From positions 1-64,000 of the forward strand of contig KE159595.1 in the NCBI GenBank assembly GCA_000403255.2: a DNA stretch of 64,000 bases, read 5' to 3'. Positions 22,808 through 64,000 of the stretch are shown piece after piece (position 1 is the first letter of the stretch; every line of letters begins with the position of its first letter). Origin of the DNA: Lachnospiraceae bacterium 3-1. Its GTDB lineage: Bacteria; Bacillota; Clostridia; Lachnospirales; Lachnospiraceae. The notes under the pieces are model-generated. The model did no database searches, was not told the origin of the DNA, and saw only the letters and a list, made by a program, of their open reading frames with translations. The position numbers and the translations under genes are program-made.

Positions 22808-23080
22808 ATGCACATCAGCTACAAACCGCTCTGGCACACACTGATAGAGCGCAACATGAGGAAAGAGGATTTAAGGCTTGCCGCTGGCCTGACCACAAAT
22901 ATGATAGCCAACATGGGAAAAGAAGGGAAACATATCAGCATGGATACACTTGCCCGTATTTGCGAAACGCTGGATTGTGGCATTATGGACGTGATTGAGC
23001 TGGCCGGTGACGAGCCTTCCACCACAGGAGGGGACGACAATGGAAAAACTGAAAGAAAGAATCACAGAGAACGGCATTGA
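22808..23080 (+). CDS. XRE-family regulator next to tnpV
   Basis: Ninety residues after GGCAGGGAG. The helix-turn-helix (DLRLAAGLTTNMIANMGKEG, ISMDTLARICETLDCGIMDV) is of the short YozG-like type. The gene overlaps the downstream tnpV by 41 bases. Such XRE-TnpV pairs are common in Clostridial elements; control of the neighbouring genes is likely but unproven. Confidence 0.8.
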   Translation: MHISYKPLWHTLIERNMRKEDLRLAAGLTTNMIANMGKEGKHISMDTLARICETLDCGIMDVIELAGDEPSTTGGDDNGKTERKNHRERH

Positions 23081-23719
23081 TTATATTCTGGTAGGCGACT
23101 ACTACATCCCGGACTTGAAGCTGCCGGAGGAGAACCGCCCCATCGGACGCTATGGGCGGCTGCGCCGGGAATATCTCAAACAGGAACACCCGGCACGGTA
23201 CAGCTCCCTTATCCTGACCGGGAAATTATGGACGTACCTTGCCGACCTGAACGAACAGGCAGAGGAAAGGCTGGACTTAATCATCGAGCAGATGAAATCC
23301 GCCGAGGGAGTGACCGAGGAACTGAAAGCCCGGAATCAGCTTGAATGGGTTCAGAAAATCTAAACTTTTGGATTTTTCCTAAAATCCAAACTTAGGAGAA
23401 ATCCAAACTTTTCTGAAAATGGCTTGATAATAGGGGATTCTTGTAGAAAAAAGTTTGGATTTCATTTCGCCAAATGCAATGCTCCAATTATGACAAAATG
23501 AGAAAAACACTGTTATTTAGCTCTGTTCCAACTAATTTATTTCCATTTTTGACAAAAGAAAGCCAAAACAAAATCCAAACTTTTTTGTCAGAAAACGCCT
23601 TAAATAAAGGATTTACAGAAGAAAGTTTGGATTTCTCAAAAGTTGGGATTTTAGGCCGGATGAACAATATCCGCAACCGGGCGGAGGAAATCATAAACAG
23701 CGAACTGATTTATATTTGA
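23040..23719 (+). pseudogene. tnpV: TnpV gene split by a MITE-like insertion
   Basis: ATG 23040 follows AGGAGGGG. The first part reads GDYYIPDLKLPEENRPIGRY, then LRREYLKQEHPARYSSLILT and AEERLDLIIEQMKSAEGVTE up to LEWVQKI and a stop at 23361. The missing family C-terminus appears in frame with a new ORF at 23657-23719 as MNNIRNRAEEIINSELIYI. The 300 bases between carry inverted repeats and no gene of their own. The C-terminus can be compared with the intact TnpV at 60941, which ends MNGIRHSAEETVLTELVYSL. TnpV function is not known. Confidence 0.85.
23357..23656. mobile_element. MITE-like insertion with inverted AAATCCAAACTT repeats
   Basis: CCTAAAATCC...GAGAAATCCAAACTTT at 23378-23414 is matched by its reverse complement at 23609-23655 (allowing a few mismatches). 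Further copies of AATCCAAACTT or its complement are at about 23385, 23401, 23451, 23575 and 23622. A 10-bp hairpin (TTTGGATTTT/AAAATCCAAA, 23367-23390) sits at the left end. The element encodes no protein of its own; exact ends are uncertain by a few bases. Confidence 0.7.
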
Positions 23720-52100: not shown

Positions 52101-52307
52101 GCAAGTTTCACTTGCATGGACTCCTGCGGAGGGCGTTGTCTGCCTTGCGGCAGCCAAAAGGGGAAACGACAATTCCCCTTCGCAAGCTGCGCTTGCTACT
52201 CCTTAGTGAACTTTGCGTTCAGACAAAAGCCAAAGTGCGGCTTTTATCTGCCCACAAAGTCTGTCCATGCGCTCCACTACCCTGTTGGCAGAATGTAGGT
52301 GTTGTGT

Positions 52308-53882
52308 ATGGGTAATGTCACAAAACAGGCAAGCACACGTTTCTCCATAGTCAAGCGGAGCAAGGGGCAGTCAGCGGTTGAGAAAGCGTCCTATATCAGC
52401 AGGAGTATTCTTGTCAGCGAGTTTGACGGGCAGACCTACCGCCCGAAATACCATGAAGATTTAGTCCACAGCGAAATCACTCTCCCACCCAATGCGCCCA
52501 AAGAATATGCAGACCGAGCCACCTTATGGAACGCTGTTGAACTGTCAGAGAAAGGGCAGAAATCACAGCTTGCGAGAATGTTGAAAGCGTCACTCCCCAA
52601 CGAATGGAGTTATGAACTTGCGGAGGAAGTTGTAAGGGATTATGTGCAGAGGAATTTTGTTGACAAGGGAATGTGCGCTGATTGGGCAATCCATGACAGC
52701 GAGAACGACAAAGGACAGCGCAATCTCCATATCCATGTTTTACTCACAATGCGCCCTCTCACTGAAAACGGGGAATGGGGAGCAAAACAAAAGAAGATTT
52801 ATGACCTTGACGAAAACGGCGAGAAAATACCAGTGATTGATAAAAGGACAGGTCAGCAGAAAGTTGACAAGCGGAACAGGAAACAGTGGAAATGCCACAC
52901 CGCCGACAGCACCGACTGGAACAGCAAAGAGAACGCCAAAATGTGGCGCAAGGATTTAGCCGACACAATCAATGCTACCAATGAGCAGTTGGGGATTGCG
53001 CTACATTGGGAACACCGCTCTTTTAAGGAACAGGGGATTGACAGAGAGCCGACAATCCATATCGGGGCGGTTGCCAACGCTTTAGAACGCAAAGGCATAC
53101 AGACCGAGAGGGGCAACATCAATCGGGAAATCGTCAAAAACAATATGCTGTTGGAACAGGCGAAAGAAATGCTCATGCTTGCCAAGCAGGAACTTCACAG
53201 CGCACAATACGCCAAGATTAAGAGTACAGCGGTCAGCGTAAAGAATGAAGTCATGGAGATGATTGCAAAAGTGAGGGAGCGCAAAGGCAGATTAGACTTG
53301 CCGATTGTCAGCGGAAAGCACCTAAGAAGAATATCCGACAGAACCGCCTTGCAGTCAGCCGATAATGCGGAGAAATTCATCACCACAAGGAAGATAGACA
53401 GCTTTGAGAGCCTTGCGAAATTCACAGCGGATAAGGAACAGAAATACAGCCAGCTTGAAACAGTGCATTTGTCAAAGGGGCAGAAACTAAACCGATTAAA
53501 GGAACTGTCAAAAATGTATGCCCTCTTTGCGCCGATCCAAGCCACCTATAAGGAGAGCCAGTCTCTCAAAGGACTTGCAAAAATGCGGTATGATAAGGAG
53601 CATAAGGACAGCTTATCGAAGTACCCCGAATTAAAGGAGCGTATGCAGAGCCTTTTACAGAATGGCGAGAAGATAACGCCGAAACAGTGGAAAGCAGAGA
53701 TACAGTCTTTGCAATCCGAGTATGACAGTATCGGCAAGGAGCAAAGCAAGACCGCAACAGAGTTAGCGTATGCAGAAATTATCAGCTACAACAGAAAGAA
53801 CCTTGAGAGGGAGCTTCAGAACGAGAGCCGACAGCATAACAGGCAACAAAACAAAACGAAACGGAGGGAGGAAGAAATTTAA
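52308..53882 (+). CDS. MobA/MobL (MOBQ) relaxase of IME4
   Basis: 524 residues from ATG 52308; in-frame TTG/GTG codons just upstream are alternatives. SIVKRSKGQSAVEKASYISR (candidate tyrosine), then MCADWAIHDSENDKGQRNLH and HIHVLLTMR give the metal-binding histidines. A coiled-coil C-terminus follows. The oriT-like hairpin lies 210 bases upstream. It diverges from the IME3 relaxase, so the two probably prefer their own oriT. Confidence 0.9.
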   Translation: MGNVTKQASTRFSIVKRSKGQSAVEKASYISRSILVSEFDGQTYRPKYHEDLVHSEITLPPNAPKEYADRATLWNAVELSEKGQKSQLARMLKASLPNEWSYELAEEVVRDYVQRNFVDKGMCADWAIHDSENDKGQRNLHIHVLLTMRPLTENGEWGAKQKKIYDLDENGEKIPVIDKRTGQQKVDKRNRKQWKCHTADSTDWNSKENAKMWRKDLADTINATNEQLGIALHWEHRSFKEQGIDREPTIHIGAVANALERKGIQTERGNINREIVKNNMLLEQAKEMLMLAKQELHSAQYAKIKSTAVSVKNEVMEMIAKVRERKGRLDLPIVSGKHLRRISDRTALQSADNAEKFITTRKIDSFESLAKFTADKEQKYSQLETVHLSKGQKLNRLKELSKMYALFAPIQATYKESQSLKGLAKMRYDKEHKDSLSKYPELKERMQSLLQNGEKITPKQWKAEIQSLQSEYDSIGKEQSKTATELAYAEIISYNRKNLERELQNESRQHNRQQNKTKRREEEI

Positions 53883-53962
53883 TGAAAATCTGATAGAAAT
53901 ATGAGTGTGATTGTGGTATTCTATTAAATGTACAAATCGGGATTGTTGGAGGATATTTAATT

Positions 53963-54619
53963 GTGAACAAGGCATGGTCAGAACTGAATAAAACAATGCA
54001 AACACAAATCAAAAAGAAAGACACCTATGAAGCAGGCATTGACACATTATTTGAATTGCGAAATCAGTTAATGGAAACCTTAAAATCATTTAACGAGGAA
54101 TTATGCAGAGAAGATTTTGACGCAATTCCATTTATAAATGCAGACGGTTATCATAGTAAAACGATTGCATATTCAATTTGGCATATTTTCCGTATTGAAG
54201 ATATAGTTGCACACACATTGATAAGCGAAAATGAGCAAGTGTTTTTTGCGGGCAATTATCAAGAACGTATCAATTCGCCTATAATTACAACAGGAAATGA
54301 ACTTGTAAAAGAGCAGATTGCAGATTTTTCAAAGCGACTTAACTTGAAAGAACTTTATTCCTATATTTTTGAGGTAAAGGATAGCACCGAGAAAATAATC
54401 AATAGCTTATCCTATGATGAATTGAAAAAGAAAATATCAGAAGAAAGAAAAGAACACTTAAAATTATTAAATGTTGTAAGTAATGATGAAAATGCAATTT
54501 GGCTTATTGATTATTGGTGCGGTAAAGATATTCGAGGGTTAATACAAATGCCTTTTTCAAGACATTGGATTATGCACATAGAAGCAAGTTTGCGTATAAA
54601 AAACAAGATACATTCATAA
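53963..54619 (+). CDS. DinB-like four-helix protein
   Basis: 218 residues from GTG 53963 after TTGGAGGATA. ADGYHSKTIAYSIWHIFRIE and MPFSRHWIMHIEASLRIKNK hold the histidines expected for the metal site of DinB/YfiT-type bundles. The family includes thiol-dependent transferases, but the task of this one is unknown. It is AT-rich cargo between relaxase and recombinase. Confidence 0.75.
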   Translation: MNKAWSELNKTMQTQIKKKDTYEAGIDTLFELRNQLMETLKSFNEELCREDFDAIPFINADGYHSKTIAYSIWHIFRIEDIVAHTLISENEQVFFAGNYQERINSPIITTGNELVKEQIADFSKRLNLKELYSYIFEVKDSTEKIINSLSYDELKKKISEERKEHLKLLNVVSNDENAIWLIDYWCGKDIRGLIQMPFSRHWIMHIEASLRIKNKIHS

Positions 54620-54683
54620 GTGCAAATTCCAGTTTGTCGAAACAACCATTGCCACAATCACAACAGAATAGTTACATAGCGTC

Positions 54684-54720
54684 AGAGCGTATAGAAAAAA
54701 GTCTATGCGCTCTATTTTAT
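54684..54720 (+). terminator. Terminator after the DinB-like gene
   Basis: AGAGCGTATAGA and TCTATGCGCTCT with a T-rich tail, 64 bases after the stop. Confidence 0.85.
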
Positions 54721-54737
54721 TGTAAAGGAGCAGATTT

Positions 54738-54911
54738 ATGAGTAAAGACAGCAAGGCACAGCATAGAGCCGCCCGACAGCACCAACCCACAAAAATAATC
54801 GTGGAAAGGCACTATGTAGGCACTGAAAAAATGGAAACGGTATTCAAGCGGATAGCCGAGGAACAGATAACAAAAAAGGTTAAGGAGATAGCGGAAAACA
54901 ACGTAAATTAG
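54738..54911 (+). CDS. Small protein preceding the recombinase
   Basis: Fifty-seven residues from ATG 54738 (AAAGGAG upstream): SKDSKAQHRAARQHQPTKII, then VERHYVGTEKMETVFKRIAE. It takes the position of TnpW and of the IME3 protein 35146. Basic start and helical end; function unknown. Confidence 0.6.
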   Translation: MSKDSKAQHRAARQHQPTKIIVERHYVGTEKMETVFKRIAEEQITKKVKEIAENNVN

Positions 54912-54981
54912 CACTGGAAACGGAAAAGGGAATATAGTATAATAGGAGTTGAGGAAGTCCCTTTTCATTAAGGAGGACGAC

Positions 54982-56619
54982 ATGAAAAGGGCAAAACTGA
55001 ATAACGACAAAATCACTGCTTTATATTGCAGGCTTTCCAAAGATGACGGCACGAACAATGAGAGCATGAGTATCAGCACACAGAAAACCATGCTGAAAGA
55101 TTATGCAAAGCGCAACGGTTTTCTGAACTGCCAGTTCTACGTTGATGACGGTTACAGCGGTACGAACTACGACCGCCCCGCTTTCCGACAGCTTATCGAG
55201 GACATACAGGACGGGGAAGTGTCAACGCTCATCACAAAAGACCTGTCACGATTGGGGAGGAATTATCTTGAAACGGGTACTTATATCGAGGTATTTTTCC
55301 CTAATCATAACGTGCGGTACATTGCAATCAATGACGGAGTGGACTCCATAGACAACGCACAAATGGATATTACACCATTCCGCAACATCATCAATGAAAT
55401 GTACGCAAAGGACACGTCAAGGAAAATTAAGAGCGCACTCCACGCAAGGAGAATGCAGGGCAAGTATATGGCTACTACCGCCCCATTCGGTTATCAGAAA
55501 GACGAGAAAGACCATAACCACCTTGTCATTGATGAAGTGACCGCCCCTGTTGTGGAACTGATTTTCTCAATCGCCGAGGAGGGTGTGGGGCTTCACACTA
55601 TCTGTAACCGCTTGCGAAAGGCAAAAGTGCTGAAACCGAGTTTTTACAAAAAGGAACTGTTTGAGCGGTTTATGGACGAGGAAAAAATGTATGACTGGGA
55701 CACTGCCTATGTCAGTCAGATATTGCACAATCCCGTCTATGCAGGAAACCTCACCGTTGCGGACAAGCCGACCAAGACCATGCGTTCCAAGAAAAGACAG
55801 TATATCCCGTATGCGGAGCGTGAAATCATCTATGGCACGCATGAGCCGATTATCGAACAGAACCGCTGGAACAACGTGCAGAAGATTTTGCAGAGCAGAC
55901 CGCCCGTTATCGGGGAAAGTTCAAGCGGATATGACAACATCTTCCGAGGGGTTATCAAGTGCGCCGATTGTGGGAGTGCCATGCTTGCCAAAGTCGAGCA
56001 GAAAAGAAAGCGGAACAATGTATTAGACAAGACTTTCTACTGCTGTACCAAATACCGCAAGTTTGGGAAAGAGGGCTGTTCGGCACACACCATTGAGGCG
56101 AGGACGGTTCACGAAGTGGTGCTTGCAGACATTCAGAAACACGCAGGACAGGCACTGACGGACAGGAAAGCTATGGTAACGGAGATTGCGGAGCGTCTTA
56201 ATCTCCAAATGTCGGCGGACAGGGAACAGCAGAAAAAGGAACTAAGGCAATGTAAACAGCGTGTGTCGGAGATTGAAAACCTGTATGCCAAGCTGTACGA
56301 GGACTTGACAAGGGAACTGCTGACCGAAAAGCGTTTTCAGATGTTGTCGGCAAGGTATGACAGCGAGCAGGAAGAACTGACAGCCAAGATAAAGGAACTT
56401 GAAAAAAGTGCCATAGCGGACAAGGAGCAGTTATTTTCCATTGAACAGTTTGCGGAGCAGATAAGCGGTTATGCAGGAATAACGGAACTCAATTTTAAGA
56501 TAATCAATCAACTGATAGAAAAAATTCTTGTTTCTGAACCCGTAGAAGTTGACGGGCAGAAAATTCAACGACTTACTATCCATTACAAATTCATAGGGGC
56601 ATTGGAAACCCTTGAATAA
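54982..56619 (+). CDS. Large serine recombinase of IME4
   Basis: The start ATG 54982 follows AAGGAGGACG and gives 545 residues. Catalytic serine in ALYCRLSKDDGTNNESMSIS, then DDGYSGTNYDRPAFRQLIED and ITKDLSRLGRNYLETGTYIE. A recombinase domain, a zinc ribbon (CADCGSAMLAKVEQKRK) and a coiled coil near residue 410-500 follow. It lies 41 bases from the junction with topB. It is apparently complete and responsible for insertion into the TDAGREGE codons. Confidence 0.92.
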   Translation: MKRAKLNNDKITALYCRLSKDDGTNNESMSISTQKTMLKDYAKRNGFLNCQFYVDDGYSGTNYDRPAFRQLIEDIQDGEVSTLITKDLSRLGRNYLETGTYIEVFFPNHNVRYIAINDGVDSIDNAQMDITPFRNIINEMYAKDTSRKIKSALHARRMQGKYMATTAPFGYQKDEKDHNHLVIDEVTAPVVELIFSIAEEGVGLHTICNRLRKAKVLKPSFYKKELFERFMDEEKMYDWDTAYVSQILHNPVYAGNLTVADKPTKTMRSKKRQYIPYAEREIIYGTHEPIIEQNRWNNVQKILQSRPPVIGESSSGYDNIFRGVIKCADCGSAMLAKVEQKRKRNNVLDKTFYCCTKYRKFGKEGCSAHTIEARTVHEVVLADIQKHAGQALTDRKAMVTEIAERLNLQMSADREQQKKELRQCKQRVSEIENLYAKLYEDLTRELLTEKRFQMLSARYDSEQEELTAKIKELEKSAIADKEQLFSIEQFAEQISGYAGITELNFKIINQLIEKILVSEPVEVDGQKIQRLTIHYKFIGALETLE

Positions 56620-56660
56620 TGGATATTCTCTAAGTCACCTATTCCAACTATCCAACAGAC

Positions 56661-58448
56661 GCAGGGCGGGAGGGAGAACTGATCTTCCGCCTTGTGTATG
56701 ACCAGGCAGGGTGCAGGAAACCCATAAAGCGGCTCTGGATTTCCTCTATGGAGGAAAGCGCAATCCGTGAAGGCTTTGCAAACCTGCGTCCGGGAAGCGA
56801 TTATGATAACCTCTACCACTCCGCACTGTGCAGGCAGAGGGCGGACTGGCTGGTGGGGCTGAACGGCACGAGGCTTTTTACAGTCCTGTATGGTGGCAAG
56901 GTATTAAAGGTCGGCAGGGTGCAGACACCAACGCTTGCGATGCTGGTGGAGCGTGAGGAAAAAATCAGGAATTTCAAAAAAGAACCATATTATACAGCGC
57001 ATATCCTGACGGGCGGCATGGATGCGGCAACGGAGAAGATAGCTGAAAAGGCGCAGGCAGAGGGCATCGCTGCAGCGTGTGAAAGCAAAACCGCCACGGT
57101 TGTTTCCGTCACAAAAGAGAAGAAAACCGTACAGCCGCCGAAACTCTATGACCTGACCTCGTTACAGAGGGATGCGAACCGCTTATTCGGCTTTACCGCA
57201 AAGCAGACCTTAGAATATACGCAGAGTCTTTATGAGAAAAAGCTGGTCACATATCCCCGGACGGACAGCCAGTATTTATCGGACGATATGGAAGATACGG
57301 CAAGGGCAGTGATCGGGGCGGTTTACAAGGCGATTCTCTTTGAAGAACTCTCCGGGGCAGAGCCGGATATAAAGAGGGTAATGGACAGCAAAAAAGTGAC
57401 AGACCACCACGCAATCATTCCCACAATGGAGATCGCAAAGGCTGACCTTTCCGTCGTGCCGGAGGGGGAGATGAAAATCCTCTCCCTTGCCGCCAACCGC
57501 CTGCTCTGCGCCACAGGACAAAAGCATGAGTATGAAACGGTCAGGGCAGAGTTTGACTGTAACAGCGCTGTTTTTACTGTTTCTGGGAAATCCGTAATAA
57601 AGAATGGGTGGAAAGATTTTGAAGCCGCACTGAAGCGTTCTTATAAAACCACGGAAGATAAGGAAAAAGAGGAAAAGAAGCTGCCGGAGCTTTCGAAAGG
57701 GATGGTTTTTGAAGGAGTGCAGACGAATGTAACGGAGCATTTCACGCAGCCGCCGAAGCATTTTACGGAGGACAGTTTATTGTCGGCAATGGAACGTGCC
57801 GGGGCGGAGGATATGGGCGATGAAGTGGAACGGAAAGGGCTTGGCACACCTGCTACACGGGCGGATGTGATTGAGAAGTTAGTCAAGGACGGTTTCGTAA
57901 AACGTGAGAAAAAGCAGATGATTCCTACGGAAGATGGAGTAAAGCTGATCACCGTGCTGCCTGATGTGATGAAATCCCCGCAGCTTACCGCTGATTGGGA
58001 AAATGCCCTTACCCTTGTGGCAAAGGGGGAATATCCCATGCAGGCGTTTATGGACGGAATTGCTGATCTGGTAAACGGGCTTGTGCAGATTTACCACAGT
58101 ATCAGTGACGAACAGAAATCCATGTTCGGGGGCGGCGCACAGGAAGTTTTTGGCAAATGCCCGAAGTGCGGCGGCGATGTGGTAAAAGGGAAATTCGGCG
58201 CTTATTGTAAAAATAAATGCGGCATGAACGTGTCCAGGGTAATGGGGGCAGCGCTTACCGACAGCCAGGCAAAAAGCCTGCTGGAAGGGAAAAAGACCCT
58301 TGTGAAAGGCTTGAGGGGGAAGAAAGGCAGCTATGATGCGTACCTGATACCGGAGGGCGTGGAGAATTACTCCTATACCAAAGACGGGAAGGAAATCAAA
58401 GGCTCGCAGTATAAAGTGAAGATGGAATTTCCCAAAAAGAAAAAATAA
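56661..58448 (+). pseudogene. topB: Topoisomerase III, C-terminal part
   Basis: The frame resumes as AGREGELIFRLVYDQAGCRK, the second half of the TOPRIM motif. Further on come the type IA active-site region (KKLVTYPRTDSQYLSDDMED) and GTPATRADVIEKLVKDGFVK. A C-terminal zinc-ribbon (CPKCGGDVVKGKFGAYC) closes it. Without IME4 the protein would be about 700 residues, the normal TopB size. Topoisomerase III genes in ICEs are thought to aid transfer or replication. An ORF from ATG 56694 could yield a fragment without a catalytic site. Confidence 0.92.
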
Positions 58449-59965: not shown

Positions 59966-59976
59966 GGAGGGTGCGG

Positions 59977-62900
59977 ATGGACAGAGGATACCTTGTTTCA
60001 AAGAAATACCATGAAATCTCCATACTGGCGGGGGAAACCGCAAGGCAGGTGTCTAAGAACGGGAGGGAATGGGCAAAATACCTGACAACTGCCGCAAGGC
60101 TGTACCGATACCCGTTTGAGGATCAGATGCTGATCTACGCACAGAGGCCGGGGGCCACAGCCTGTGCCACTATGGAAACATGGAATGAAAAAATGTTCTG
60201 CTGGGTGAACCGTGGGGCAAAGGGGATCGCCCTTTTTGACCGGGACAGCGAGCGCCCCAGGCTGAAATATGTTTTTGACGTGTCGGACGTGCATAAGGCA
60301 AGGCGGATCGGGAAAGACCCGTATCTGTGGGAACTGCGGGAGGAACACAAGGGCGCTGTGCTGGCGCAGCTTGAGAAGACCTACGGCGAAACGAATAAAA
60401 ATAATCCTTTTGAGGGCAGGCTCATAGAGATTGCCAGGAGGATTGCGGAAGATTATTACGGGGAGATTATGCAGGATATGTCCTACGCCAAGGAGGGCAG
60501 CTTCTTAGAGGAACTTGACGAGCTGAACGTGGGGCTGCGGCTTCGGGAAACACTCTCCGCAAGCATCGCATACACCCTGTTATCCCGGTGCGGCGCTGAC
60601 ATGGATTTCTGGAAGGACGAACTGAATTTTGACTATATCAGTGAGTTTAACACTTCAATGGCATTATCTGTCATTGGGAACGCAACTACGGATATGTGTA
60701 AGCCAGTCCTCATGGAGATCGGGAGGACGGTTGCCGCTTATGACCGCCAGATGGCACGGCAGAAAGCCGCAGATAAGGCGAGGGAGAGGACGGACGGGGC
60801 GCAGGCCGCCGCTGAAAAAAATCCTGAAAAAGTGCTTGCAAATGAACCGGAACCACGCTATAATGCTTTAAAGCGTGAAAGCGAAAACGAACCACAAATT
60901 GATACAGACACCAACCACATAGAAACGGAGGGCATTACGCATGGAACTGACATACGAGAAGAACGGGGATTACCTGATACCCAACCTAATTCCGGACAGC
61001 GAGCCGGAGGAGCCGCTGACCAAGTACGGGCTGATGCGGAAGAATTACCTGAAGGAACACCGGAGGGGGATTTACAGCGGGCTTCTGATGGAGGGCAGGC
61101 TGAAAGCGCACTGCCTGGAGATACAGAGGCAGGCGGAGGAAAGGATGGACTTCCTGACAGAGCAGATGGCGAAAGCCGAGGGAGTGGACGAAGCGCTGAA
61201 AGCGTCCGATCAGATGAAATGGGTGGCGAAGATGAACGGCATCAGGCACTCGGCAGAGGAAACCGTACTGACGGAGCTGGTCTACAGCCTTTAACCAGCG
61301 AAGCACAACCGAATAAGGAAACAGAAAAGCCGGATGATGGAGAGGATTCATTGTCCGGCTCTTTTTTGGATAACCTGGATTTTGCGGAAAAGGCGATGGA
61401 GGTTCAGAAAGGGGTTTTATGCTCTGACGATTTCCTTATCCATAAAAGGCCGGAGATAGCGGGATATTTCGCAGCAGAGCCGGACGCAAGCCTGCAAACG
61501 GAATATTTTAAGAACTGCTTCCATTTTAATACCTATTACGGGTATGAGGCGGCGGGCATTCCTGTCGGTTTTTATGCCAATGAGGAAGGGATTCACATCA
61601 ACATGACCGGAAAACCGGGTGTGGAGAATGAAACCCATATATCATGGGAGGATGCCCGTTTCTTTGTCAATTCCTATATGGAGGATGATGTATACCTGCT
61701 TCCGGGGGAAAAGGCGGAACAGATTGATACGAATGGGATGTATCAGCAGCTTGATTTATTTTCCCTGTTCTCGGAGCAGGTGGGCAGTATCGCCATGAAG
61801 GAGGCGGAGGAAGGCATTCTTCCGGCAGAGAAGGCAGGCCCCGGACAGCCAAAGGCAGCGTTTCCACAGGAGCAGGTTGACACAATCCTGCGCAGCGGGG
61901 GCGGCAGGGATGACAGCCGCAAGCGCATTTATGCCAAGTACCAGCAGGGCAAGATGCCGGAGGAAATGGCGGAATTTCTCAAAAAGGAATACGGCACTAC
62001 CGGGAAAGGCTTTGAGTTTGAGGGAAAACAGGTAGCTGTGTGGTTTGACGGCCAGGGAATGCGTGTCGGAAAGGGTACGTCTGCGATGGAGAATCCGGCG
62101 CTTACAATGGACTGGAAAGAGATTGAAGCACAGATACGCTCCCAGGTGGAAAACGGCTCTTATATGGGCGCAAATGAAGCCTACCTTGTGGACGAGGTGG
62201 AGCGTGGGCGGATTGCCAATTTTACGGCATATTTTTTCTATGATGGCATGGGGGAAATGCCGGAGGAAATCTTTGAGAAAGTCGGGAACCGCTCGGATGC
62301 CCATGAAAGAATGGTGGAGCTTTTATCCTCGCCAGAGGGGATTGACCTTGTTGCTTCCCACATGGATAAAGCACTGGAGCAGCTTGAAAGCGGCGAGAAA
62401 AAGCTGCGTTTCCGTTCTGTTATGCCCAAAGAGGAACTCAGGGCAGAGCTTGACAACCTGCTTTTACAGAAGAAAACATTCCCGGTATCTGACCATGTGG
62501 AAGTGAAGAAAGAGGATTTTATCACGCAGGACGAGATAGACCACAGGCTCGGCAGGGGGAGCAGCTTTGAACACGGCTCTTTCCGTATCTATGACTATTT
62601 CATGGAGGGGCATGGCAGCAAGGAAGCGGCGGCTTTTTTGAAAAAGGAATACGGGATCGGCGGCAGTACCCATGCGCTCGCCGGGGCTGACCACAGTTAT
62701 GAGAACCATGACGGGAAAGGCATCCGCCTGGAAAAAGGCAGCATCATGGAGCCTTACACAAAGGTGCTGTTGCCGTGGAAAGCGGTAGAGAAGCGTATCC
62801 GCAAACTTATCCAGGAAGATAAATATTTATCCCCAAAGGGCAAGGAAGCCTATGCAGAATACAAAGAGGAACAGGCGCAAAAAGAGCTTGAAAAAGCGCT

Positions 62901-64000
62901 GGCAAAGATAGAGCGTGACACAAAGGTTTCCTGCAAGGATGCCATTGACAGGGCTATCGCAGAGAATTTTGACGGACACCGTCTGCCAAAGGCAACGGCG
63001 GAGGGCGTTATCCGGGAATATGGCATAGAGCGTGTAAGCTATGTGCTTGCGAATACCGTCATGCACCGTAGTCAGGAAGAACGCATTTCCCCGGAGAATA
63101 AGGAATGGGCAAAGTCCATTGAACCGTATGCTATGTATGAGAGCCGGGATATAGTCGCCGCTTCCCACCCTGCCGTGCTGAACGGCTTCATCAACCAGGC
63201 AAGGAGATATATTGAGCGTGAGAAAGCGCTTGCGGCTCAGATCGAAGCAGAACGGGAGCAGACGCAGGAGGATGTGCTGGAGATTGCGGAAGGAGAATTA
63301 GAGTGGCACATCATACATGAGGCGGATGACGATAACGGACAGCCGGCACAGTGGAGCGCAAAGCTGCCGAATGGGGATTTTCTTTGGATTGACAAAGAAA
63401 CGGAAGGGTATGCCCTGTATGACACCCACGATACGGACGCAAGCCCGGTTTCCGTTTCGGAAACACTGGACGGGGCAAAGGAAAGTGGGGAAGATTACGC
63501 TTTAGATTCTGCCAATGCGGAAGAAATGGAGAAAACCACGGTTGCGTTGGAATCCTCAGAGGATTTTGCAGAACCGGCGATAGGATTTTATACCCACCAG
63601 TATGCGGACGGAAGGGAGGGAGTGCGTTACCGGCTTGTGACAACGGCGGAGGACGGGCTTCTGATACCTTATCCGGAGCATGGCCGATTTTTTATCAACC
63701 GGGAGTTGGCGCAGGAGTACATAGAGAATCACATAGATTTGATTGATGTGATTGGATATGATGATATGGTATTCCAGTCCATGCAGAAGCAGAGCCAGTA
63801 TAAAAGAGAACAGACACAGAAAGAAACTTCTGGACATGATGTCCAGAAGTCCGGCGAACCGATTTCCATTGACGGACAGGAGTGCGTAAAGGTGGATGAA
63901 TGGAATGCCGGGGATAACATATATGTCGTTGGCAATTCCGTGGAGGACAGCGATTTCTTCTATGCGTCGGTAAATGGGAAGGACTTTTTTGAGTATGACC
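59977..64000 (+). CDS. Giant SNF2/N6-methylase-type ICE protein, N-terminal part
   Basis: The frame starts at ATG 59977 after AAGGAGGGTGCGG and remains open to the window end (1341 codons). The first 250 residues (WAKYLTTAARLYRYPFEDQM, then CWVNRGAKGIALFDRD) are the N-terminal ArdC/SNF2-associated domain. A disordered linker of about 120 codons (60941-61294) has the tnpV gene in another frame. Then come repeated units of the YodL/DUF4316-like kind (MPEEMAEFLKKEYGTTGKGF, GSKEAAAFLKKEYGIGGSTH). Family members continue with a methylase and a SNF2 helicase; that part is outside. Proposed roles include anti-restriction. Confidence 0.85.
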   Translation, partial: MDRGYLVSKKYHEISILAGETARQVSKNGREWAKYLTTAARLYRYPFEDQMLIYAQRPGATACATMETWNEKMFCWVNRGAKGIALFDRDSERPRLKYVFDVSDVHKARRIGKDPYLWELREEHKGAVLAQLEKTYGETNKNNPFEGRLIEIARRIAEDYYGEIMQDMSYAKEGSFLEELDELNVGLRLRETLSASIAYTLLSRCGADMDFWKDELNFDYISEFNTSMALSVIGNATTDMCKPVLMEIGRTVAAYDRQMARQKAADKARERTDGAQAAAEKNPEKVLANEPEPRYNALKRESENEPQIDTDTNHIETEGITHGTDIREERGLPDTQPNSGQRAGGAADQVRADAEELPEGTPEGDLQRASDGGQAESALPGDTEAGGGKDGLPDRADGESRGSGRSAESVRSDEMGGEDERHQALGRGNRTDGAGLQPLTSEAQPNKETEKPDDGEDSLSGSFLDNLDFAEKAMEVQKGVLCSDDFLIHKRPEIAGYFAAEPDASLQTEYFKNCFHFNTYYGYEAAGIPVGFYANEEGIHINMTGKPGVENETHISWEDARFFVNSYMEDDVYLLPGEKAEQIDTNGMYQQLDLFSLFSEQVGSIAMKEAEEGILPAEKAGPGQPKAAFPQEQVDTILRSGGGRDDSRKRIYAKYQQGKMPEEMAEFLKKEYGTTGKGFEFEGKQVAVWFDGQGMRVGKGTSAMENPALTMDWKEIEAQIRSQVENGSYMGANEAYLVDEVERGRIANFTAYFFYDGMGEMPEEIFEKVGNRSDAHERMVELLSSPEGIDLVASHMDKALEQLESGEKKLRFRSVMPKEELRAELDNLLLQKKTFPVSDHVEVKKEDFITQDEIDHRLGRGSSFEHGSFRIYDYFMEGHGSKEAAAFLKKEYGIGGSTHALAGADHSYENHDGKGIRLEKGSIMEPYTKVLLPWKAVEKRIRKLIQEDKYLSPKGKEAYAEYKEEQAQKELEKALAKIERDTKVSCKDAIDRAIAENFDGHRLPKATAEGVIREYGIERVSYVLANTVMHRSQEERISPENKEWAKSIEPYAMYESRDIVAASHPAVLNGFINQARRYIEREKALAAQIEAEREQTQEDVLEIAEGELEWHIIHEADDDNGQPAQWSAKLPNGDFLWIDKETEGYALYDTHDTDASPVSVSETLDGAKESGEDYALDSANAEEMEKTTVALESSEDFAEPAIGFYTHQYADGREGVRYRLVTTAEDGLLIPYPEHGRFFINRELAQEYIENHIDLIDVIGYDDMVFQSMQKQSQYKREQTQKETSGHDVQKSGEPISIDGQECVKVDEWNAGDNIYVVGNSVEDSDFFYASVNGKDFFEYD
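60941..61294 (+). CDS. tnpV: TnpV-family protein encoded out of frame inside the SNF2-type gene
   Basis: 117 residues in the +1 frame relative to the giant gene, with its own CGGAGGG site 8 bases before ATG. NGDYLIPNLIPDSEPEEPLT, then YGLMRKNYLKEHRRGIYSGL, EERMDFLTEQMAKAEGVDEA and MNGIRHSAEETVLTELVYSL match the stand-alone TnpV at 23040 through the whole length. The host frame over the same bases encodes a low-complexity Gly/Asp/Glu/Arg linker. TnpV function is unknown. Confidence 0.85.
   Translation: MELTYEKNGDYLIPNLIPDSEPEEPLTKYGLMRKNYLKEHRRGIYSGLLMEGRLKAHCLEIQRQAEERMDFLTEQMAKAEGVDEALKASDQMKWVAKMNGIRHSAEETVLTELVYSL
63827..63849. repeat. 23-bp palindrome, copy 3 (in the SNF2-type gene)
   Basis: Same arms as at 1755 and 44108, centre TGA. 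It encodes TSGHDVQK in frame. Confidence 0.9.

Follow-up and report, generated by a model that had tools for sequence, protein, structure and literature searches.

A TnpV frame nested inside a giant SNF2-type gene of conjugative elements in Bacillota

Can a single stretch of bacterial DNA, lying within the frame of a very large gene, also code for a complete protein of another known family? This question is raised by a locus in a 64,000-nucleotide stretch of Lachnospiraceae bacterium 3-1 (contig KE159595.1, positions 1 to 64,000), the whole of which is called the window here. The initial annotation had proposed that a tnpV gene with its own ribosome site is overprinted in a giant SNF2-type gene, either because it entered that gene in a stop-avoiding frame or because the two evolved as a true dual-coding region. 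The features of the locus are as follows.

59971..63999, continuing past the window, + strand: giant polyvalent SNF2/methylase-type gene with GTG start (open reading frame and Pfam)
59998..60819, + strand: N-terminal domain, here called the header, with ArdC-like fold (AlphaFold model and Foldseek)
60920..60922, + strand: TAG in the TnpV frame, 7 codons 5' of the ATG (sequence reading)
60927..60932, + strand: Shine-Dalgarno motif GGAGGG of the nested tnpV, 8 nt 5' of the ATG (sequence reading)
60941..61294, + strand: nested tnpV, 117 aa, ATG start, in the +1 frame (PF14198, 143.2 bits)
60940..61293, + strand: the same DNA in the main frame, a hydrophilic linker (residue composition)
62860..63210, + strand: DUF3849 domain in the main frame (window position calculated from residues 967-1083 of L054:463-10968)

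The nested frame, its host gene and their distribution

Both frames are open over 60941-61294 as had been claimed, with an ORF of 117 residues that starts with ATG and lies inside the frame running from 59971 past the window end. The nested frame encodes a complete TnpV, as it matches PF14198 over positions 1-111 of 111 (E 3.9e-42, 143.2 bits, cut-off 27), and the ribosome site ascribed to it is the GGAGGG listed above. A profile search of NCBIfam gave no match. The description of the main frame over the same DNA as a hydrophilic linker also agrees with the wider data, since hydrophobic residues make up 11% of the linker and 34% of the N-terminal part (pooled over the 165 loci introduced below). 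The likeness to a free-standing tnpV near 23040 held in part: the two proteins are 46% identical over 92 aa, but the comparator is itself interrupted, and consists of the following pieces.

22995..23363, + strand: comparator free-standing tnpV, interrupted, the frame stopping at profile position 94
23474-23719, separate ORF: C-terminal remnant of the comparator tnpV (PF14198 profile match)

This interrupted free tnpV (22995-23719) lies downstream of a serine recombinase gene.

On L054, the fetched stretch that carries the window gene, the main frame is open for 3502 codons. Pfam finds DUF3849 and ResIII above cut-off in the giant protein, and Eco57I, SNF2-rel and Helicase_C below it. The AlphaFold model of the header (pLDDT 90.2) has as its top PDB matches the two structures 6sna and 6i89 of ArdC of R388, with Foldseek probabilities of 0.91 and 0.96 and E values of 0.016 and 0.036, which are weak; the Pfam family ArdcN gives no match in the window protein and a match below cut-off (E 0.019) in the homologue L016. 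The giant protein appears to be composed of a probably ArdC-like header followed by DUF3849, methylase-like and SNF2-helicase-like parts. It has what is expected of a polyvalent protein, several domains on one chain, encoded by a conjugative element. Pfam identifies further conjugation-type genes in the window, namely a TraG-type ATPase, NlpC/P60, CD1107-like, MobA/MobL and a topoisomerase, and the host element is probably Tn1549-like. A MobA/MobL relaxase gene (52299-53882) and a large serine recombinase gene (54949-56619) stand directly 5' of the topoisomerase ORF (56694-58448), for which the Pfam matches include no Toprim N-terminal domain; the region 52299-58448 gives the impression of a topB gene interrupted by a mobilizable element.

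The genome of the strain holds 22 TnpV matches, three of which are nested in giant genes in the same phase (the window locus L010 and the loci L016 and L017), although the N-terminal domains of the latter two are only 29% and 25% identical to that of the window. A search for the header domain in 250 Lachnospiraceae genomes gave a match in 69. The loci fetched were the well-covered header matches and a few partial ones, followed by plasmid records, and amounted to 103 loci or, as four places are present twice, 99 distinct places. TnpV was found in 98 of the 103, in all 98 on the + strand, in phase +1, inside the main ORF and after the ArdC-like N-terminal domain, and the TnpV profile had no match in the other five frames of the 103 loci. 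The five loci without TnpV are L070, L076, L103, L108 and L109, the last with a main frame of only 185 aa.

A second set came from a scan of genome contigs (80 listed of at least 587 relatives) and from viral contigs, and comprised 93 further loci after two repeats had been left out. A nested TnpV is present in 82 of them, among the matches listed. In L148 and L162 TnpV is present and the main frame is broken; nine loci have no TnpV, and in six of these the contig runs out no more than about 210 bases from the header match, the others being L159, L212 and L222. Pooled, and among the matches listed, there are 179 usable nested entries, of which 165 are distinct in sequence. They derive from Cohnella, Enterococcus, Virgibacillus, Aerococcus and S. 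agalactiae in the Bacilli, from Anaerococcus and Ruminococcus, and from many Lachnospiraceae. Of 299 genomes sampled across the phylum, 22 had a header match, the window's own genome being one of them. Diverged nested copies are still recognized as TnpV, seven of eight tested scoring above the Pfam cut-off alone, and the most diverged one, L121, reaching 20.1 bits, which is below it. Many loci are kin, and thinning to less than 70% header identity leaves 70 scored loci.

Start sites and putative cassette signals

Among the 165 distinct loci, the TnpV start is ATG in 162, TTG in two and unclear in one. It is preceded in 136 loci by a Shine-Dalgarno match of at least 5 nt and in 28 more by one of 4 nt, as against 7.2% (5+ nt) and 27% (4+ nt) at random places in the header, so that a 4-nt match is weak; because the start was chosen among in-frame candidates by the quality of the ribosome site, these counts are somewhat favoured. 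Judging from these sequence motifs, the nested tnpV probably has a translation start of its own. Two further elements flank it in the window.

60836..60864, + strand: putative sigma70-like promoter TTGCAA-N17-TATAAT, some 77 bp 5' of the nested tnpV start (consensus score)
61328..61367, + strand: intrinsic-terminator-like hairpin with T-run inside the main frame, beginning 34 bases 3' of the TnpV stop

Loose scans of the window alone gave one promoter-like and one terminator-like site, which does not exceed the shuffle means of 1.1 and 1.9. Across loci the signals stand out. A promoter score of at least 10 of 12 occurs upstream of TnpV in 65 of 163 loci, versus 4 of 489 header windows and 2 of 163 shuffled sequences, and an exact TATAAT in 63 of 163 versus 2 of 489 in the background. 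A hairpin with T-run follows the TnpV stop in 71 of 163 loci, versus 27 of 611 places further downstream, 16 of 366 within the header and 6 of 489 among shuffled sequences; under a stricter definition (at least 5 G-C pairs and 6 T) the figure is 51 of 163, versus 3, 0 and 0 for downstream, header and shuffled sequence. The shuffles in these comparisons across loci keep base composition only, whereas the window scans and the fold use dinucleotide shuffles. By the latter, the window hairpin (-24.4 kcal/mol) has a z of -5.54, compared with 0.35 for a control stretch.

In the wider clade of the window, 96.5% of the cells in the hairpin alignment pair, and the covariation score of 0.307 lies above 500 of 500 shuffles (0.244 for shuffled sequences), in a set of 19 chosen sequences that leans towards structure, since 18 were picked from 27 related loci and joined to the window, and loci with no hairpin or with a longer loop, as well as one near-copy, were left out. 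Two-sided changes in 4 of 12 hairpin pairs, matched by 104 of 500 shuffles, and the number of pair types, reached by 218 of 500, are unexceptional. Other clades have hairpins of different sequence at nearly the same place. In L163, L166, L171 and L173 no such hairpin was found in the stretch after the nested TnpV, and the main frame there seems to run directly into the next conserved part.

Taken together, at least one of the promoter and terminator signals is present in 110 of 161 loci and both in 25, and after thinning to less than 70% header identity in 46 and 10 of 70 loci, respectively. The cassette is not universal, since 51 of the 161 loci lack both a strong promoter match and a terminator in these scans. 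Judged by these motifs, the nested tnpV often looks like a self-contained expression cassette with a putative promoter and terminator.

A more far-reaching reading is that a full cassette uses its terminator as a switch, and that the TnpV family originally resided in the nested state, from which the free tnpV genes of transposons escaped as copies. Ribosomes on the giant frame would then melt the hairpin, and transcripts from the internal promoter would end after tnpV. We regard this as rather unlikely: 13 of 21 free-standing TnpVs (some of them near-copies) keep a terminator-like hairpin, but none of the 21 equals the nested copies in its promoter match by reaching a score of 10, in a search window counted from the TnpV domain and not from the ATG. 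On a phylogeny with 81 nested and 19 free TnpVs, the label changes five times, two of these changes being forced by well supported branches, compared with a shuffle mean of 17.6, but a tree that holds the free TnpVs together is not rejected (AU p 0.11); free copies may have escaped from the nest.

The start sites also bear on whether TnpV is a separate protein at all. By programmed frameshifting, ribosomes could slip from the N-terminal domain into the TnpV frame and produce a fusion of the ArdC-like and TnpV domains instead. In favour of this, the TnpV frame follows the header directly and leads the main frame by one base, and 23 of 165 loci have it open over more than 60 codons upstream of the TnpV domain. 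However, a stop lies within the 20 codons upstream of the TnpV domain in 69 of 165 loci, and in the window the in-frame TAG seven codons upstream of the ATG argues against a long fusion. As the ATG found in 162 of 165 loci and the Shine-Dalgarno match of 5 or more nt in 136 would moreover be superfluous in a fusion, we consider frameshifting improbable.

Constraint in both frames and common descent

Synonymous change was compared in 66 non-overlapping closest pairs of loci, one of which (L218/L221) was misregistered and was kept in the fourfold totals and dropped from the residue and upstream-bin analyses (65 pairs). At fourfold sites of the main frame, the rate of change was 0.278 before TnpV (1720 of 6192), 0.023 over it (64 of 2827) and 0.273 after it (1984 of 7260). 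This twelve-fold drop is the outcome of the synonymous-site comparison that the initial annotation had asked for, and it bears out the dual-coding proposal. The rate over TnpV was lower than that before TnpV in 63 of 65 scorable pairs, and in the two exceptions, L035/L056 and L075/L217, changes are very few. Within the TnpV stretch, change is fastest at main position 1 (0.204 versus 0.105 and 0.084), the site that corresponds to position 3 of the TnpV frame. Main position 1 exceeded main position 3 there in 63 of 64 pairs without ties, whereas the reverse held for the N-terminal part in 66 of 66. Residue differences (65 pairs) amounted to 13.0% in TnpV, 24.8% in the main frame over the same DNA and 14.7% in the N-terminal part.

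Both frames are therefore under selection. The stronger amino-acid constraint is on the TnpV frame, while the main frame is held open and its residues drift faster. That the linker residues are only lightly constrained also follows from TnpV's own fourfold sites, for which the rate is 0.200, or some 70% of that outside. A frame that is kept open with faster drifting residues most likely provides a flexible linker in the giant protein. The synonymous rate of the main frame is lowered already before the TnpV start, to 0.11-0.18 in the bins 40 to 20 codons upstream, and the promoter-like pair may explain part of this. In nested loci the dip spans 40 to 15 codons before the TnpV start.

An open main frame is not to be expected from TnpV alone. 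In all 13 free-standing TnpVs of the genome, the frame equivalent to the main frame contains 2-8 stops, compared with none in 98 of 98 nested copies. These 13 exclude six partial copies, which themselves have 1 to 6 stops in that frame, and include L005 and L011 with a stop in TnpV itself and L006 and L007 with identical counts. In a second listing, in which the own-genome loci are repeated, the -1 frame is open for up to 116 codons in the free copies except L265, and for at least 384 codons in the nested ones. L265 (G318:C1:148208-148537) is a free TnpV beside a serine recombinase with a -1 frame open for 162 codons, and is either a chance case or a former nested copy. When TnpV was recoded randomly with synonymous codons, the main frame stayed open in 0.3% of draws on average and in none of 200 for the window; in the reverse case, with the linker recoded, the TnpV frame stayed open in 23% of draws (165 loci). 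The open +1 frame by itself is thus weak evidence, and the open main frame is strong evidence.

These results speak to another explanation, by which a short header gene overlaps tnpV and a separate helicase gene follows downstream, the continuous main frame being incidental. Main frames of just 415-443 aa in L041, L050, L067, L070 and L079 and an annotated SNF2 gene that begins later in L119 fit such an arrangement. Yet no stop breaks the main frame over TnpV in the nested loci of the two sets (98 and 82), although TnpV alone would bring stops into it, and the downstream DNA in L041, L050, L067 and L070 is frameshifted or unrelated and looks like decay, so that we give two separate genes as little credence as a frameshift.

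It had also been suggested that relatives without the TnpV frame should lack the linker. This is the case in L076 and L103, whose main frames are open through the fetched stretch, and in L070, whose frame breaks later: they have neither TnpV nor its linker, and carry another short linker instead. The opposite pattern, a linker kept with a stop-filled +1 frame, was not found in the TnpV-less loci inspected. L070 and L076 nest inside a TnpV-bearing clade (SH-aLRT 99-100, the sole support measure), and this placement, together with the different short linker, indicates that TnpV and its linker were lost together. L103 and L108 have long branches and an unsure placement, and in L159, L212 and L109 the main frame is broken just 3' of the header.

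Over the 165 loci, the distances between headers and between TnpVs are correlated with r 0.906, the maximum among permutations being 0.105, which means that the pair was inherited together. The dual-coding pair is old. With r = 0.91 and constraint in both frames, the present state fits the second of the two alternatives offered at the outset, a true dual-coding region. That tnpV was recently dropped into one giant gene in a stop-avoiding frame and is now a passenger, as the 22 matches in this genome and the tnpV carried by some S. suis cargoes that insert in snf2 (passages of PMC9815147) might suggest, can practically be dismissed in view of the same phase and place in 98 of 98 loci, the congruent divergence, the long-term constraint and the finding that the main frame survives the recoding of TnpV in just 0.3% of draws.

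Proposed roles and relation to known systems

On the basis of the sequence comparisons, we think that the stretch very probably codes for two proteins, a giant polyvalent protein with a linker and a nested TnpV that is often cassette-like. TnpV would be translated from the internal ATG and ribosome site in the +1 frame, and the giant frame would be translated across tnpV to give the flexible linker. The promoter-like and terminator-like elements present in many lineages would be functional, and ribosomes on the main frame could cover the hairpin so that the giant message passes the terminator.

The model of TnpV consists of a strand pair and helices (pLDDT 87), and neither fold nor sequence gave a match for it in the PDB. 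Ten large neighbours of free TnpVs comprise three serine recombinases, two Mob_Pre relaxase-type proteins, one T4SS coupling protein, three others and one without a match, a mixture that speaks against a single partner of free TnpV. For the TnpV of Tn4451, an Xis-like help in excision has been postulated in PMC3158075, in the passages considered. By analogy, the nested TnpV may aid excision or DNA processing of its element, and our best guess is that it is an accessory factor of element DNA processing, made inside the gene of its companion protein. The nested protein belongs to the same Pfam family (PF14198) as the TnpV of Tn4451 and has its full domain; according to the same passages, however, the tnpV genes of Tn4451 and Tn6104 are standalone genes, whereas that of the window is nested and inherited with its host gene.

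The arrangement most likely arose once and early in conjugative elements of Bacillota, probably when a tnpV was read through in its -1 frame, as a rule the one less rich in stops, or was inserted in such a way. In 11 of 13 free TnpVs, stops are less numerous in the giant-gene frame than in the third frame, which may explain why this phase could be opened. The pair would have been lost with its linker at least once.

The giant proteins resemble the polyvalent proteins described in PMC5512222, which are large and multidomain, occur in Tn1549-like and other elements, often have ArdC-N at the N-terminus and contain a methylase-SNF2 dyad; the main text of that source, however, has neither the word "TnpV" nor "overlapping", and the passages considered mention no second gene in a linker. 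The most diverged copy, L121, from the S. agalactiae plasmid CP138365 with a name that includes "snf2", has a giant gene of the same type with a diverged TnpV-like frame at the same place, and judging from passages of PMC12942858 it probably corresponds to the snf2 of ICESa2603-family elements; its gene table, which is incomplete, lists nothing over the TnpV-like stretch. Cargo elements inserted in snf2 carry a tnpV gene according to passages of PMC9815147, the one paper in the literature covered in which both TnpV and SNF2 occur; these passages describe no nested frame. As in htgA/yaaW of E. coli, a second protein lies in another frame and the overlapped gene evolves slower, but htgA is described in the portions consulted of PMC2268670 as a new gene that arose by overprinting in one lineage, whereas the nested tnpV belongs to a known family, occurs in many Bacillota on the same strand as its host gene and often has promoter-like and terminator-like elements.

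The literature on TnpV, overprinting and overlapping or nested genes, covered by titles, abstract starts and passages of PMC3158075, PMC9815147, PMC11913394 and PMC10782964, with subscription journals mostly outside this scope, yielded no report of the nested tnpV/giant-gene pair. According to the abstract starts, the long overlapping genes of prokaryotes that count as fully established are few, and annotation systematically excludes such genes. In nine plasmid loci with the pair (L114, L118-L124 and L127), no gene table lists TnpV together with a header-bearing giant gene, these tables being incomplete: three list TnpV without a header-bearing gene, four only an SNF2/helicase gene and two neither. 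When the tables that list TnpV (L114, L118 and L119) are set against those that list an SNF2-type gene (L120 and L122-L124), the giant gene appears truncated or the small gene missing.

The annotation of such loci has a gap, and models of conjugative elements may miss a conserved protein. The pair is recognisable by homology in both frames and across many Bacillota, and stands out by its age and wide distribution among cases in which two proteins share one stretch of bacterial DNA. How two proteins are maintained on one DNA stretch over long times can thus be tested on 165 distinct natural variants, with the lineages that lost the pair as controls.
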